Source: Cyanobium sp. FGCU6 (GTDB lineage: Bacteria > Cyanobacteriota > Cyanobacteriia > PCC-6307 > Cyanobiaceae). From it: a stretch of DNA of 64,000 nucleotides. The notes below the pieces were generated by a model that saw only the letters and a program-made list of their open reading frames with translations, was not told where the DNA came from and ran no database searches. Made by a program: the position numbers and the translations under genes. Location of the stretch: contig JANWUR010000002.1 of the NCBI GenBank assembly GCA_024958655.1, forward strand, positions 124,001 to 188,000. Direction: 5' to 3'. This document shows, in pieces, positions 46,650-53,266 of this stretch. Each line of letters begins with the position of its first letter. Position 1 is the first letter of the stretch.

Positions 46650-48350
46650 ATGCGAAACCTCCTCCAGCTCCCAGCCGCCAGGCCCCGGGCCCTCTGGACC
46701 GCCCTGATCCGCGAAGCGGGCCTGCGGCAGGTGGGCACACAGGTGGGCCTCACCCTGCTCGTCAGCCTGCTCGATGTGGGAGGACTGGGGCTGGCGATCC
46801 GGCTGCTGCTGGGCAACCAACGTGGCGGCCCCGCCCTGCCGCTGCAGGTCTCGTTGCCGATTCTGTTCATGGTTGTGGTGGGCCGCTCGGCACTGCAGGG
46901 CCTGGCCAGCGTGCGGCAGGAACAGTTGCAGAACGGCTTCAGCGACCGGCTGCGGCACGATCTGCTGGCCCTGGTGCTGGCGGCACCGGCGAACCAGGTG
47001 CAGACCGTGGGTCGGGGCGATCTGCTCGGACTGCTGGTGAGCGACATCAGCCGCAGCACCCTGGCCCTCGACCAGGGGGTGCGGGCGATGCAGAACATCC
47101 TCGCCCTGCTGATCTACGGGCTGGGCGTGCTGGTGGTGGCGCGCAACGCCGCCCTGCCCCTGGTGCTGGGCCTGGGCGCCGCGGCCACGGCGGCCCTGCT
47201 GCGCCGCTCGGGAGCCTGGCAGCTGGGGCGCCTCCAGACCCAGCTCAACGGCGCCATCCAGCGCACGGTGGGCGATGGCCTGCACGGCCTCAAGGCGGTG
47301 CGGGCGGCAGGGGCCGAGTCGTGGCTGCTCGAGCGGTTCGCCCGCGAAACCGAACAGGTGCGCCAGGTGCTGAAGAGCACCGTCCGTCGTCAGGCCAGCT
47401 ACACGGTGCTGCGCGATGGCCTGGCCCTGGCAGTGGTGGGCCTGTGGCTGTGGCTGGTGCAGAACAGCCTCACCCCTGAGGCGGTGGCCACTACCTTGCT
47501 GCTGGTGGTCCGGGCCGCCAGCTCGCTCGGCACGGTGATCAGCAACCTGCGCTATGGCCTGGGCGCCCTCCCCGGCTACGGGGAGCTCTGCCGGCTGCGT
47601 CAGCGGCTGCGGGCTCCCGCGGGCGATCCACACCCCACCTCCACCCCCGGCCTGCCGGGTGCGGGACCCGAGGAGACTGCTCCGCAGCCGCTGCTGCGGG
47701 TGAGCTGGCACGACCCCCAGGTGACGGTGGAGCTGGTGCGGGGGCAGCTGACCGTGGTGGCCGGCCCTTCGGGCAGCGGCAAGACCACCCTGCTGGATGG
47801 CTTCGCGGGGCTGCTGGGGGAGGAGCGATCCTGCTGGGACCTGCACGGGCCGGCGGGGCACAGCCTGCTGGAGGGCCGCGCCGGTGCCCGCCGCTGGCGG
47901 CAGCTGGTGGCCTATGCGCCCCAGGACCCGGTGCTGTTCGAGGGCAGCCTGCGCGACAACCTGCTGCTCCAGCGCAGCGGTTCCGGGCAGTGGACCGACG
48001 GAGCCCTGACGGTATGGCTGGAGCGTCTGGACCTGGTTCACCTGCTGGCACGCCCGGAGGGCCTCGATGGCCAGCTGCATCTCTCGCTCGACTGCTTCTC
48101 CGGCGGCGAGATCCGCCGGCTGGTGCTGCTGCGCACCTGGCTGATCGATCGGCCGGTTGAAGTGCTCGATGAACCCACCGCCTCCCTGGATCCAGGCAGC
48201 GCCGCCCTCGTGCGCCAGATCATCCGCGAGCGCAGCCGGGAGCGTCTGGTGCTGGTGGCCAGCCACGACACGGAACTGCTGGCCATCGCCGACCGCACCA
48301 TCCGGCGGAGCCTTTCGGACCGCGACCGGGCCCGGGCCCTCCACGACTAG
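46650..48350 (+). CDS. Lasso peptide exporter (ABC transporter, 'D' protein)
   Basis: This is a 566-residue half-transporter with a membrane domain (about 20-310) fused to an ATPase. Walker A is GPSGSGKTT (372-380), the signature is CFSGGEIRRL, and Walker B is VEVLDEPTASLD. Lasso D proteins export the finished peptide and give immunity. The functional assignment rests on its place just before the lasso genes. The start lies 8 bases after aspS. Its stop TAG shares the palindrome CTAG (48347-48350) with the stop of the inverted nucleotidyltransferase gene. It has no peptidase C39 domain. Confidence 0.85.
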   Translation: MRNLLQLPAARPRALWTALIREAGLRQVGTQVGLTLLVSLLDVGGLGLAIRLLLGNQRGGPALPLQVSLPILFMVVVGRSALQGLASVRQEQLQNGFSDRLRHDLLALVLAAPANQVQTVGRGDLLGLLVSDISRSTLALDQGVRAMQNILALLIYGLGVLVVARNAALPLVLGLGAAATAALLRRSGAWQLGRLQTQLNGAIQRTVGDGLHGLKAVRAAGAESWLLERFARETEQVRQVLKSTVRRQASYTVLRDGLALAVVGLWLWLVQNSLTPEAVATTLLLVVRAASSLGTVISNLRYGLGALPGYGELCRLRQRLRAPAGDPHPTSTPGLPGAGPEETAPQPLLRVSWHDPQVTVELVRGQLTVVAGPSGSGKTTLLDGFAGLLGEERSCWDLHGPAGHSLLEGRAGARRWRQLVAYAPQDPVLFEGSLRDNLLLQRSGSGQWTDGALTVWLERLDLVHLLARPEGLDGQLHLSLDCFSGGEIRRLVLLRTWLIDRPVEVLDEPTASLDPGSAALVRQIIRERSRERLVLVASHDTELLAIADRTIRRSLSDRDRARALHD

Positions 48351-49504
48351 GAGCTGAGCCGCCGGCGAATCCGGGCCAGACGGGAGGCCAGGGCGGCGTC
48401 AAAGCGGCGGTCGGCCCCGGAGGCGGGATCGTTGAACACCGCCGGCGGCAGGGCATAGGCCGCGGCGCTGCGCAGCCAGTCGTGGGGGGAGCGACTGAGG
48501 GCCACCCGCTGGTACCAGAGCTCCCAGGCCCGCTTCAGGCGCCAGGACTGCCGCTGATGCAGAAACGGGGCTTCCCTCTGGGCCCGTCGCGCCACATCCA
48601 CGGCCCAGCGCTGCCGCCCCGACAGCCGGCAGGGATCCTCCAGACCCGGCAGACGAACCTCCAGCAGGGCGGTGGCCACGGCCCAGGCCAGGGCCACCGC
48701 CGGCCGGGCGCGCAGATCGTCCGCCAGCGCCTCCCCCCGCAGGCGCATCAGCCGCACCAGATCCACCAGGGCCCGCAGCTCACCCCAGCGATCATCGAGC
48801 GCGTGGGCGGCCAGATGCTCGAGGGCATGGGCGTGGCCGAGGGTGGGCACGGGCCGCCCCCCGATCGGGATCTCCTGCCGCTGCCGCCAGACGGCCTCGA
48901 ATCCAGGCCGCTGACGCTGCACGTTGGTCAGCGCCCAGTGGAGATCGACCAGCAGCGGCCCCCGGGCCAGGGGCAGCTCCTTCATCGCCCAGCGGGCGTA
49001 ACGCCAGGCCCGGCGCCGAAGCTGGCGTGGCGCATACCCCGGCAGCCGCTGGAACCCCGCCTCCTCCAGCACCGCAATGGCGGCTTCCACCGCCTGCGGA
49101 TCCACCAGCAGATCGAGATCGCCGCTGCCCCGGCCACCGGGATCGCCACAGGTCTGGGCGGCCAGCATCGGCCCCTTGAACACCAGCGCCCGCACCCCTG
49201 CCGCCTCGAAGCGGGGGATCAGCTCCACGGCCAGACCGGCGAGCGCCAGCCCGCCCAGTCGCTGCAGAGACGCGCGGCGCTGGAGCTCCGCCACCACGAC
49301 GGCGGGAAAGCCGAGCGCGGCGGCATGGGGGCTGAGGCAGAGCTCAAGCCGGTGGCGGGCCACAGCGGCCAGCAGAGGCCCGGCCTCCAGAGCGGAGCCA
49401 TCGGGAGGGGTGGCCACGTCCCCCTGCTCCACCGCCAGCATCCAGCGAAGAGCCCGGCGCAGCGCCACCAGCTCGGCCGGATCGCGGCCATAGGGTGTGC
49501 CCAT
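48347..49504 (-). CDS. Nucleotidyltransferase-family tailoring protein of the lasso cluster
   Basis: This 385-residue protein resembles the NTP_transf_5 'nucleotidyltransferase family' members found in kinase-containing lasso clusters. The core is ALVFKGPMLAAQTCGDPGGRGSGDLDLLVD (GS...DLD metal-binding motif, about 125-155), with DLHWALTN and HALEHLAAHALDDRWGELRALVDL later. In Bacillus-type lasso clusters such enzymes add a group, reported as a sugar, to the kinase-modified tail; the role here is inference. It alone is inverted in the cluster. Its start shares CATG with the B2 start, and its stop shares CTAG with the exporter stop. Confidence 0.8.
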   Translation of the reverse strand: MGTPYGRDPAELVALRRALRWMLAVEQGDVATPPDGSALEAGPLLAAVARHRLELCLSPHAAALGFPAVVVAELQRRASLQRLGGLALAGLAVELIPRFEAAGVRALVFKGPMLAAQTCGDPGGRGSGDLDLLVDPQAVEAAIAVLEEAGFQRLPGYAPRQLRRRAWRYARWAMKELPLARGPLLVDLHWALTNVQRQRPGFEAVWRQRQEIPIGGRPVPTLGHAHALEHLAAHALDDRWGELRALVDLVRLMRLRGEALADDLRARPAVALAWAVATALLEVRLPGLEDPCRLSGRQRWAVDVARRAQREAPFLHQRQSWRLKRAWELWYQRVALSRSPHDWLRSAAAYALPPAVFNDPASGADRRFDAALASRLARIRRRLSS

Positions 49505-49979
49505 GGGAATGCCCTCAGCCCCTGCCCATCTTCGCGGGCCCTGGCAGCGCTGGAGCAGGCTGAGCGCCCGCCAGCGGCGGCTCACGCTGCAGGCCTGGCT
49601 GCTGCTGCCCGCCGCAGGCGCGGCCCTGCGGATCCTGCCCCTGCGCCACCTGCTGAGGCTGCTGGCGCTCCGCCCTGCAGCCACACCCGGTTCCCTTCCC
49701 ACCCAAGGGGCCGCCGCCCCCGATCCCCTGAGCCGCGACATCGCCGAGGCGATCAGCCGGGCGGCCGCCAGCGCGCCCACCGGCGGCACCTGCCTGCCCC
49801 GCGCCCTGGTGGGTACCGTGCTGCTGCGTCGGCACGGCCGACCGGCCCAGCTCACCCTCGGGGTCGCCACGCCCGGCGAGGGGCTGACGGCCCATGCCTG
49901 GCTGGAGAGCGAGGGGGCACCGATCAGCGGCTTTCCGGTCCCCTCCACCTGGCAGCCCCTGGTACGGTTTCGGGGCTGA
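49503..49979 (+). CDS. Lasso peptide leader peptidase (B2, transglutaminase-like)
   Basis: This is a 158-residue B2 protein, which cuts the leader from the precursor with help from B1. The catalytic Cys is in GGTCLPRALVGTVLLRR and the His in LTAHAWLESEG, the usual spacing of lasso cysteine peptidases. An N-terminal hydrophobic region (LTLQAWLLLPAAGAALRILPL) is common in the family. Starts at GTG 49497, ATG 49503 and ATG 49509 are in frame. I choose 49503, whose ATG shares CATG with the divergent nucleotidyltransferase start. The cyclase gene follows 11 bases on. Confidence 0.88.
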   Translation: MGMPSAPAHLRGPWQRWSRLSARQRRLTLQAWLLLPAAGAALRILPLRHLLRLLALRPAATPGSLPTQGAAAPDPLSRDIAEAISRAAASAPTGGTCLPRALVGTVLLRRHGRPAQLTLGVATPGEGLTAHAWLESEGAPISGFPVPSTWQPLVRFRG

Positions 49980-49990
49980 GAAGGTCCATC

Positions 49991-51832
49991 GTGATCGTTC
50001 CGATGGCCGGCCTGGTGCGCCGCCGCTCCACCGCCCCATTACCTGCCCTGCCACCGGAGGCAGAGGATCAACAGCGGCAGGAGCTGATCCTCGACCACCT
50101 CCACTGGCGCGGCAGGCTGTCACAGCACGGCTCCTCCGGCAGCCTCTGCCTCGGATCGGCCCGGATCGACAACCGCCGCGAGCTGCTCGAACAGCTGGAG
50201 CTGAACGTCGAGGCCTGGGGCGCCGAAACGCCCCGGGAGCCGGCCTGTGACGACACCCATCTGATCCACCGGGCCTGGCTGCGCTGGGGCGAGGCCTGTT
50301 GCGAACGGATGTACGGCGACTGGGCCTTCGCGATCTGGAACGAGCGGGAGCGCTCCCTCTTCCTGGCCCGCGACCATTTCGGCATCACCTCGCTCTACTA
50401 CGTGCTCACCGACACGCTGCTGGCCTTCGCCACAGACCAGTCGGTGCTGATCGATCTCCAGCTCCTGCCCTACGAGATCGACGAGCTCTATGTGGCCCAG
50501 GTGCTGGTGGCCTGGCAGGCCTACCACGGTGGACAGACCGTGCGCCACGGCCTGCACCGACTGCCGCCGTCCCATCGGCTCACGGTCACCCGGGAGCGGG
50601 ACCGGCTGGAACAGTACTGGCATCTTGAGCGCCTACCGCCGCTGAAGCTGCGCGACCGCCGCGACTACGTGGCCGGCTTCCTGGAGGTGTTCGACGAGGC
50701 GGTGCGCTGCCGCCTGCGGCGCGACCGGGGCGGACTGGTGGGCAGCACCCTGAGCGGCGGCCTTGATTCCGGCTCGATCAGCGCCACCGCCGCCCGGATG
50801 TTGGCGGAGTCGGGGGAGGAGCTGCGGGCTTTCACCTCAGTGCCGATCGCCGACACCACACCCTTCAGCGGCGACAGCTTCGGCGATGAGTGGCCCTTTG
50901 CGGCCGCCACCGCCGCCGCCGCCGGCATCCGCCACCACCAGCCCGTGCCGGCTGCCGATCAGTCGCCGGTGGCGGCGATCCAGGCCCTGCTGGCGATCCA
51001 CCGGGAACCCAGCCATGCCGCCGGCAATGCCTTCTGGATGCTCACCCTCAACCGCCTGGCCAGGGAGGCGGGCTGCTCGGTGCTGCTGATCGGCCAGAGC
51101 GGCAATGCCGGGCTGTCGTGGGCCGGCAGCCTCTGGTCCCAGCCGCTGGCCTACCAGTGGCAACGGCTGGGGGCCCGGGAATGGCTGCGCCAGCGGGCCC
51201 TGCGCAGCGCACCGGCGGCTGTGGTGCGCCACTGGCGCCGCTGGCGCCTGCGGGAATTCAGCTTCGATGGCTCCGCCCTGGCGCCTGCCGCAGCCGAACG
51301 GCTGCAGCTCAAGCAAAGGATGCTGGCGGACTCCGATCTCCTTCCCGCCCGGGAGGCACTCCAGGAGCGAAGCTGGCTGATGCCGGACCGCTCCTGCGTG
51401 GGGGCGCTTCATGCCCAGATGGCCCGGGCCGCCGGCCTGGAGATCCGCGACCCGAGCGCCGATGCCAGGCTGCTGGCCTACACCTGGTCGGTGCCGGATG
51501 CGGTGTTCATCGATCCGGAGAACGGCGAGGACCGCTGGCTGATCCGCGCCGCCATGGAGGGCCGGGTGCCCGATCAGGTCCGCAGACAGCGGCGACTCGG
51601 CCTCCAGGGTGCAGATTTGGCGGTGCGGCTGCGGCGCGACGCGGCCGAAGTTGAGACCTGCCTCAGCTCCATGGAATCCTCGAATAGCGCCAGGTCGCTG
51701 GTTGACACCGCCAAGATGAGGGAATCCTGGTATCGAATTTTACACTACGACGATCCCGGGTCTCGGATGCGGGCTGGCTCTATAGTATGCAGAGGTTTAA
51801 TGGCAGGCATGTTCCTGCTTGTGCCTGGCTAG
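49991..51832 (+). CDS. Lasso cyclase (C, asparagine-synthetase-like)
   Basis: This 613-residue cyclase adenylates the ring Asp/Glu side chain of the core and closes the macrolactam. It has an N-terminal glutaminase-like domain without the nucleophile Cys (AFAIWNERERSLFLARDHFGITSLYY) and an ATP-pyrophosphatase domain with SGGLDSGS (255-262). Both are hallmarks that separate lasso cyclases from true asparagine synthetases. GTG 49991 has AAGG 6 bases upstream; ATG 50003 is possible. The last 60 residues are encoded by DNA of lower G+C than the rest. The precursor gene starts 49 bases downstream. Confidence 0.9.
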   Translation: MIVPMAGLVRRRSTAPLPALPPEAEDQQRQELILDHLHWRGRLSQHGSSGSLCLGSARIDNRRELLEQLELNVEAWGAETPREPACDDTHLIHRAWLRWGEACCERMYGDWAFAIWNERERSLFLARDHFGITSLYYVLTDTLLAFATDQSVLIDLQLLPYEIDELYVAQVLVAWQAYHGGQTVRHGLHRLPPSHRLTVTRERDRLEQYWHLERLPPLKLRDRRDYVAGFLEVFDEAVRCRLRRDRGGLVGSTLSGGLDSGSISATAARMLAESGEELRAFTSVPIADTTPFSGDSFGDEWPFAAATAAAAGIRHHQPVPAADQSPVAAIQALLAIHREPSHAAGNAFWMLTLNRLAREAGCSVLLIGQSGNAGLSWAGSLWSQPLAYQWQRLGAREWLRQRALRSAPAAVVRHWRRWRLREFSFDGSALAPAAAERLQLKQRMLADSDLLPAREALQERSWLMPDRSCVGALHAQMARAAGLEIRDPSADARLLAYTWSVPDAVFIDPENGEDRWLIRAAMEGRVPDQVRRQRRLGLQGADLAVRLRRDAAEVETCLSSMESSNSARSLVDTAKMRESWYRILHYDDPGSRMRAGSIVCRGLMAGMFLLVPG

Positions 51833-51868
51833 GGATCTCTAGCCCATCACTCACCCGTTACACAGCTT

Positions 51869-51873
51869 GAGGG
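51869..51873 (+). promoter_or_regulatory. Ribosome binding site of the lasso precursor gene
   Basis: GAGGG sits 8 bases before ATG 51882. It is among the better Shine-Dalgarno matches in this cluster and supports translation of the small precursor gene, which no longer gene would need. Confidence 0.7.
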
Positions 51874-51881
51874 CTCGACAG

Positions 51882-52040
51882 ATGAAGGCTTTCACGAAAC
51901 CACAGCATCCAGTTGCCCCTTGCCGGGATAAGCTGGAGTGGATCACTCCTTCAGTAAAGCGAATATCGTTGGATATCACTCTTGCAGGCGGAGGGAGTTC
52001 CGACGATGGAGGTGGTCTCAGAATTCCTCCAACTCCATGA
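51882..52040 (+). CDS. Lasso peptide precursor (A)
   Basis: This is a 52-residue precursor. The leader (1-34) contains the recognition motif W20-I-T-P23 followed by hydrophobic V25, I28 and L30, and has Thr33 at -2 to the cut. The predicted core is AGGGSSDDGGGLRIPPTP (35-52). A1 would supply the ring amine and D8 (or D7) the side-chain acid, giving an 8- or 7-residue ring and a 10-residue tail. Spacing from W/Y-x-x-P to T-x-A-G equals that of paeninodin-type precursors as I recall them. It has a GAGGG site at 51869, lies between cyclase and kinase genes, and overlaps the kinase start by 35 bases. If cleavage is after A35 the core is G1 with D7 as acceptor. Confidence 0.87.
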   Translation: MKAFTKPQHPVAPCRDKLEWITPSVKRISLDITLAGGGSSDDGGGLRIPPTP

Positions 52041-52983
52041 TCATAAACATATTGAGATCCTATCCACGCCTTCTTCAACATTATTGAAGCTTGAATGCTT
52101 CTTTTATCCGCACATCGAGTTCTCCTCGGAGCTGTTATCCAAGCATTCATTACCTCATTATTTCTTTCTTGATGCCGGCCCACGCGTCGGACGATTTTTA
52201 GTTGAAGGAACTCACATTATCCACTTCGAGCCTTGCGCCGAAGTGGATGAACACCATTTTTTGTGGGTCCTCTCCCACCACGTGCGGGCTGCTCTGCACC
52301 GCCATCGGGGCGATCTCGTTCTTCACGCCAACACCTTGCTCTGGCAATGCGGGCTGCTTGCGATCTCCGGCAGCTCCGGCGCCGGCAAATCAACCACCGC
52401 CGCTGGCCTGATCCAGCGAGGCGCGATCCAGATCGCCGACGATCTCACTGCACTGCGCGCCGGGGATCATGGCCAGTTGGTGATCCGTCAAGGTGCTCCC
52501 CAGCTCCATCTCACCCACGCCGCGGCCGAGCGGCTCGGCCTTGACCGCGGCGCCCGGCCCAGTCCCGTGCGCTCCGACAAAGTGGTCGTCCCCCTTGACG
52601 GACCCAGCAACACGATCCCCCACGCCGTCACCGAGCCCGAGGGCTGGCCCGCCCCCTCCGCACCCGGCCTGCGCGATCTCGTCCTGCTGGAACCGGGGGA
52701 CGGCCCGAACGTGGAGCTCAGCCGCCTGCGCGGCGCCGAGCTGTTCCTGGCCCTGCAGCACTGCCTCTACGGGCCCCTGAAACCCTGCGACACCCCCGCC
52801 AGCTTCCGTCTCCAGGCTCTGCTGGCCCGCAACGTCAGGGTCTGGCGGCTCAGGCGGCCGCAGACGCGCTGGTGCCTCGATGAGGTGCTCGACGCCCTCG
52901 AGCAGGCCCTGGCGGCACCCTCTTGCTCCGGGCAGGATCCTCTCGCCAGCGCAGAGCCCCGCCTGCACCCAGCCGATGGATGA
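52006..52983 (+). CDS. Lasso peptide kinase (HPr-kinase-like)
   Basis: This is a 325-residue protein with the HPr kinase/phosphorylase-like P-loop fold. Walker A is SGSSGAGKST (121-130), followed by the acidic IADDLTAL motif and a C-terminal helical region. In paeninodin-type clusters this enzyme phosphorylates the precursor's terminal Ser. Here the predicted core ends T-P, so the target may be Thr17 or a ring Ser. ATG 52006 overlaps the precursor's last 35 bases; an upstream TTG at 51982 would overlap more. The first 200 bases are AT-rich. It overlaps the B1 gene by 8 bases. Confidence 0.85.
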   Translation: MEVVSEFLQLHDHKHIEILSTPSSTLLKLECFFYPHIEFSSELLSKHSLPHYFFLDAGPRVGRFLVEGTHIIHFEPCAEVDEHHFLWVLSHHVRAALHRHRGDLVLHANTLLWQCGLLAISGSSGAGKSTTAAGLIQRGAIQIADDLTALRAGDHGQLVIRQGAPQLHLTHAAAERLGLDRGARPSPVRSDKVVVPLDGPSNTIPHAVTEPEGWPAPSAPGLRDLVLLEPGDGPNVELSRLRGAELFLALQHCLYGPLKPCDTPASFRLQALLARNVRVWRLRRPQTRWCLDEVLDALEQALAAPSCSGQDPLASAEPRLHPADG

Positions 52984-53266
52984 CCGCACCCTGATCACGC
53001 GCCGCCCTGATGCGATGGCCACCGACATCGATGACGCCACCGTGATCCTCAGCCTGCCCTCGAACTGCTACGTGAGCCTCGATGCCGTAGGCCAGCGGAT
53101 CTGGGCCCTGCTGGAACAGCCCCTATGCCTTCAGGCCCTTGTGGAGCGGCTGCAGGATCAGTTCGAGGGCGATGCGAACGCCATCCGCCGGGATGTGGAA
53201 CACTTCCTGCGCGAACTCGAATCCGACGGCCTCCTCACCCTGCAGGCCCCGGAGCCAGCGGCCTGA
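52976..53266 (+). CDS. Lasso RRE protein (B1, PqqD-like)
   Basis: This is a 96-residue PqqD-fold protein, the RiPP recognition element that binds the precursor leader and hands it to B2. Features are the N-terminal strands around ATDIDDATVILSLPSNCYVSLDAVGQRIW, then the three-helix bundle (LCLQALVERLQDQFEG, IRRDVEHFLRELESDGLL). The leader's W-x-x-P...L/V is the expected ligand. ATG 52976 lies inside the end of the kinase gene; a longer frame upstream is not needed. It closes the cluster, and the sigma-factor gene follows 10 bases later. Confidence 0.9.
   Translation: MDDRTLITRRPDAMATDIDDATVILSLPSNCYVSLDAVGQRIWALLEQPLCLQALVERLQDQFEGDANAIRRDVEHFLRELESDGLLTLQAPEPAA

Follow-up and report, generated by a model that had tools for sequence, protein, structure and literature searches.

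A lasso-type precursor gene ending in proline in a kinase-bearing cluster of Cyanobium sp. FGCU6

Paeninodin-type lasso peptide clusters (PadeA/K/B1/B2/C/D, and pseudomycoidin with PsmN) combine a WxxP leader, split B1 and B2 proteins, an HprK-like kinase with H-K-D-D residues, a nucleotidyltransferase and an ABC exporter, as described in excerpts of the published accounts (PMC9266682, PMC5067487, PMC13381572, PMC8498205). According to excerpts of two of these, PadeK-like kinases act on a C-terminal Ser that is extremely conserved in clusters with such a kinase (PMC9266682, PMC8498205). PadeK, ThcoK, SyanK and PsmK use this Ser. The Bsf cluster of Bradymonas sediminis, as set out in part of PMC10368454, provides a precedent with no terminal Ser: it holds a kinase and a nucleotidyltransferase, the precursor BsfA ends in Asp, BsfK modifies core Ser3, BsfB1 accelerates the phosphorylation of BsfA, and its authors state a ring from residue 1 to Asp8. 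LPP clusters share an RRE, an HprK-like kinase, an NTP transferase and a YxxP leader, and their linear peptide comes with a signal-peptidase-like protease (excerpt of PMC13381572).

We analysed a stretch of 64,000 nucleotides from Cyanobium sp. FGCU6 (the window) and observed a complete cluster around a short gene, A. Its features are as follows.

46650-48350, + strand: D, ABC exporter (PF00005, 3.1e-16)
48347-49504, - strand: N, uncharacterised nucleotidyltransferase (PF14907, 3.1e-39)
49497-49979, + strand: B2, transglutaminase-like leader peptidase (NF033537, 80.3 bits, above the cut-off of 33; PF13471, 1.6e-21)
49991-51832, + strand: C, asparagine-synthetase-like lasso cyclase with a GTG start and an SGGLDS motif (NF033535, 4e-74, 250 bits, under the cut-off of 525; PF00733, 3.1e-32)
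51657-52168, + strand: diverged AT-rich block reaching from the end of C across the whole of A into the start of K (from identity, a blastn gap and GC)
51882-52040, + strand: A, lasso-type precursor of 52 aa (from the ORF, orthologues, an 8-row alignment and pS/pN)
51984-52007, + strand: predicted 8-residue ring A1-D8 (AGGGSSDD) with an A1-D8 isopeptide bond (from family conservation)
52006-52983, + strand: K, HprK-like kinase with an intact motif and HprK profile and structure matches, start inferred
52976-53266, + strand: B1, PqqD-like RiPP recognition element (PF05402, 5.6e-15; lasso PqqD model NF033536, 2.8e-15, under its cut-off)

The cyclase, B1, B2 and a precursor thus occur together, with C and B1 scoring below the lasso-specific NCBIfam cut-offs and K matching HprK models below theirs. 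The nearest solved chain to B1 in the PDB is TbiB1 (5v1u, 2.5e-11), a lasso RRE. All the paeninodin-type components listed above are present; the locus differs in its divergent kinase, in a precursor that ends in Pro, and in its gene order, D-N(opposite strand)-B2-C-A-K-B1 against C-A-K-B1-B2-D in the excerpted descriptions. Among the literature matches listed, no title or abstract opening describes this cluster; a single paper, PMC8600333, holds both 'lasso peptide' and 'Cyanobium'.

An earlier note had proposed a 52-codon lasso precursor gene in the gap after the cyclase. The frame is as claimed there: it opens with ATG at 51882 and its TGA ends at 52040, residues 1-34 forming the leader and residues 35-52 the predicted core, AGGGSSDDGGGLRIPPTP. 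The GAGGG ribosome site named with it does lie 8 nt 5' of the ATG, but it is absent from both orthologues and is not conserved. A TTG start upstream at 51867 was rejected because the orthologue frame has an ATG at the equivalent of 51882. Of 197 genomes searched, two, both from the genus of the window, hold an orthologue of A (E 8.4e-8 and 2.2e-7), each directly 3' of a cyclase 84% or 82% identical to C, on the same strand and in frame; orthologues are present in 2 of the 2 genomes with so close a cyclase. By cyclase, the closest named records are Cyanobium sp. CZS25K (a MAG; L024) and Cyanobium sp. Cruz-8D1 (L025). Frameshifts or stops in close relatives that keep the lasso genes would have spoken against the gene, and the frame is open in both orthologues. 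Between the window and the orthologues pS is 0.76-0.77, which is near saturation, and pN is 0.30, the core alone offering only ~14 synonymous sites; the orthologues differ from each other by 2 synonymous and 3 non-synonymous changes and one extra codon.

The leader of A carries the lasso pattern [Y/W]xxPx[hydrophobic] with Thr at -2. Counting from W20, P23 stands at +3, T33 at +13, A35 at +15 and G36 at +16, as had been counted before; this would agree with the spacing of paeninodin-type precursors. The W-x-x-P and T(-2) leader is common to ten window-like precursors (the window, L024, L025, L038, L039, L040, L041, L120, L026 and L027), with P at +3 and T at +13 throughout, except for T at +14 in L027; the contig piece of L120 lacks the cyclase, and that of L026 has no kinase match. 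The check on leader conservation in related genomes came out in favour of the motif: W20, P23, T33 and D42 are kept in the 8-row precursor alignment, where the invariant D42 column hinges on a gap placed in L040.

Cyclase matches at 1e-40 were found in 9 of the 42 genus genomes, own included: the window's, two at 84% and 82%, four at 53-55% and two partial ones at 44%. When a profile of eight precursors was run against the same 42 genomes, 13 matched at E 0.01, 8 of them at 8.6e-11 or better, and the other five (E 0.001-0.009) are loci without such a motif; since this genus itself supplied six of the eight rows of the profile, the finds beyond the rows are G001 and G036 only. A strict leader-plus-acid motif, with the acid at core 8, has a single match in the 64-kb window and none in 150 dinucleotide shuffles, a count that is supportive and not independent, the motif having been defined after the family was seen. 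Across 855,498 bases of the loci compared (overlaps counted) it matches the A family and L109 only, the latter a kinase-bearing RiPP-like locus. Motif scans of the window for a second precursor gave A alone, and a precursor with a different motif would escape them.

Together with the position between C and K/B1, the in-frame orthologues, the W..P and T(-2) leader and the core-8 acid bear out the identity proposed earlier. We regard A as confirmed by sequence comparison to be a real gene and a real lasso-type precursor; that it codes for the precursor of a lasso-type RiPP is very probably the best explanation of the locus as a whole. A is an addition to the known lasso-type precursors, with a specific ring prediction attached: a guessed peptide is made testable, as core, ring bond and mass are defined. 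The calculated [M+H]+ is 1592.77 for the core less one water, 1672.73 with a phosphate (+79.966) and 1521.73 for a cut before G36.

Next to this conservation, a block of ~0.5 kb stands out in a cluster that is otherwise 82-87% identical. By blastn, the window cluster matches L024 at 87% over 5.7 kb and 83% over 1.1 kb, and L025 at 82% and 82%; between the two long matches, 51731-52161 gave no match to either. Taken in steps of 60 columns, the window and L024 are 75-92% identical at 51300-51656, 38-63% at 51657-52168 and 62-88% beyond it. Synonymous differences follow the same course: C has 0.27-0.28 over its first 570 codons and 0.74-0.78 over its last 43, and K has 0.66 over its first 65 alignment columns and 0.31-0.34 over the remainder. 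GC is 42-59% in the block against 66-76% in the flanking genes, and it dips in the orthologues too, less strongly. The inferred start of K at 52006 falls inside codon 42 of A (overlap 52006-52040), with a ribosome-site-like GGAGGGAG ahead of it in A codons 37-39, the Gly-rich ring codons; in the orthologues there is no such overlap, the kinase frame opening after the precursor stop. Faster mutation is disfavoured as the origin of the block, and exchange fits better, because L024 and L025 are 88-98% identical to each other across it. This suggests that the precursor module was exchanged by recombination with a diverged allele; no donor of it was found among the genomes compared. Clusters that are otherwise conserved would then perhaps exchange their precursors as modules.

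Like paeninodin-type clusters, the locus holds an HprK-like kinase with an intact catalytic motif, H-x14-GxxGxGKS-x15-DD, which is also intact in both orthologues. A profile of 24 such kinases finds HprK as its best PDB match (2.3e-9). The structure model of K has a mean pLDDT of 78.5, with the first 50 residues poor, and in Foldseek it ranks PEPCK first and HprK from rank 35 (E 4.4e-5), with TM-scores below 0.5 on the query. PEPCK and HprK are the superfamily expected for K. Because A ends in Pro, as do both orthologues, K cannot modify a C-terminal Ser. The two orthologue precursors have no Ser or Thr beyond the ring, and the only hydroxyls common to the window and both orthologues are those at core 5 (Ser) and core 6 (Ser or Thr); for this reason Ser5 and Ser6 are the predicted sites. 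K would then phosphorylate Ser5 or Ser6 in the ring segment while the precursor is still immature, much as BsfK acts on core Ser3, although this step is weaker than the others proposed here. The BsfK site itself is not shared, core 3 being Gly in the window and Ala in both orthologues; BsfA differs further in its Ile(-2) and Tyr leader, and the likeness follows the description in the excerpt of PMC10368454.

We then set the kinase against its relatives in the class. It was found in 35 of 388 class genomes, drawn evenly from a larger group, and the 41 kinase places outside the own genome gave 40 regions, 28 of them with a cyclase match. Precursors, chosen by motif and by eye, were recognised in 26 of these 28, the exceptions being L086 and L091. 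Ser is the last residue in 10 of the 26 and is not in 15, and one region (L080) is mixed. The idea that the kinase always means a terminal Ser, under which the window would stand alone, was rejected on the 15 of 26 clusters without one; judged from these sequences, the window clade shares its departure from the rule with several others. Within the genus, four sister clusters (L038-L041, with cyclases at 53-55%) have the kinase and precursors that end in Ser. One genus thereby offers lasso clusters in which the kinase is accompanied by a terminal Ser and others in which it is not, a natural comparison by which the site choice of lasso kinases becomes directly testable. The Ser label changes three times on the kinase tree against a shuffled mean of 11.5, and none of 500 shuffles was as low; the tree has 35 rows, with L109 (no cyclase nearby) in and L086 and L091 out, and near-copies favour a low count. 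Because the kinase phylogeny tracks the Ser label, each kinase lineage may have its own type of target. The strict kinase motif is found in 29 of 37 rows; the 8 misses are L038 (a faulty extraction), L097 and L107 (ED for DD) and five others.

A serious rival to ring phosphorylation is that K is a relic, or acts outside the A core on the leader or another molecule, so that the product carries no phosphate. We rate this as not far short of an even chance. It would account for the missing terminal Ser, and on the kinase tree a long branch (3.08) separates the K clade from the genus's Ser-type kinases, in a weakly supported position (63/24). Against it, the motif is intact in the window and both orthologues, the 3' part of K is constrained when set against the orthologues (pS 0.31-0.34, pN 0.12-0.13), and N has also been retained, at 83% and 74% identity in the two orthologous clusters. 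A broader proposal joins these observations: the window kinase clade was retargeted to ring Ser5 (or Ser/Thr6), N may then use that phosphate for a further step, and recombination between lineages exchanged the precursor and its flanks as one block. As a whole this is tentative, and we think it considerably more likely to fail in some part than to hold. If true, the product would be a ring-decorated peptide, threaded or not, and the modification could even replace the missing steric plug.

The core of A has no aromatic residue, and the orthologue tails, GVGGGPNP and GVGGGPNPP, contain no bulky residue. Bulky plug residues are expected in threaded lassos. Because both are lacking, threading is doubtful, an unthreaded ring-plus-tail is possible, and threading would be the least certain structural step predicted from the sequence. 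A rival view is that the product is no lasso at all: it might be a linear, phosphorylated LPP-like RiPP, or it might have a ring through which the tail is not threaded. This alternative, to which the plug-free orthologue tails lend weight, can also point to the RRE, HprK-like kinase, NTP transferase and leader motif that the locus has in common with LPP clusters; against it, the window and both orthologous clusters encode the cyclase and B2, where LPP clusters have neither, and the core acid is conserved where cyclase and B2 need it. On balance we consider it improbable.

For the lasso-type product, the predicted steps are as follows. B1 would bind the leader of A through W20-x-x-P23, B2 would cleave after Leu34 with Thr33 at -2, C would form the isopeptide bond between the Ala1 amino group and the Asp8 side chain, giving, from family conservation, an 8-residue ring with the tail GGGLRIPPTP, and D would export the product. 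The earlier note had left open two acceptors, D7 and D8, and two cut sites, before A35 or G36. Comparison resolves both, in favour of D8, an acid within the core 7-9 range of lasso rings, and of a cut before A35. With core residue 1 counted two places after T, that residue varies among the ten precursors (A, G, L, N, S); Asp stands at core 8 in nine of them, the tenth, L040, having Asp at core 6 and 9. The D7/D8 pair is conserved in its second member only. Cleavage after Leu34, A35 as first core residue and an A1-D8 bond are our best prediction, D8 being taken as acceptor because of its recurrence in 9 of 10 precursors and because position 7 is Gly in both orthologues. Asp7 closing a 7-residue ring is quite unlikely: it is present in the window precursor and lasso rings of 7-9 residues are on record (excerpt of PMC8498205), but none of the other nine precursors is acidic there. 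That A is a chance ORF has a negligible probability, since the orthologues, selection and motif statistics outweigh its shortness and its lack of any Pfam or NCBIfam match.

Several related loci were seen alongside the family. The sister precursors L041 and L120 (G001, G036) have Leu or Asn as predicted core residue 1 and 13-residue cores. L128 (G021:C142:1-15000) and L109/L130 (G114:C1:346000-376000) are RiPP-like loci whose WxxP leaders are close to that of A. ORF reading gives three precursor-like ORFs with a terminal Ser, together with HprK-like kinases and a protein resembling sulfotransferases; L109 also has nucleotidyltransferase-like and ABC-like ORFs. No lasso B1, B2 or C match was found in these stretches, the L128 kinase lies close to a contig end, and they resemble the linear polyphosphorylated peptides in the excerpt of PMC13381572. 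The kinase-bearing lasso clusters L075, L080, L090, L103 and L111, also cyanobacterial, have two or three precursor-like genes each, with several long cores among them. L028 has a partial cyclase match (29%). A second lasso type occurs in the genus at L042 9366-9545 (G041) and L043 9417-9674 (G004), with B1, B2, a cyclase and Y-leader precursors whose cores (SGTGDQRE.. and AGSRGATE..) would have Glu as the acid at position 8; in L042, a weakly matching HprK-like ORF lies ~4 kb away.
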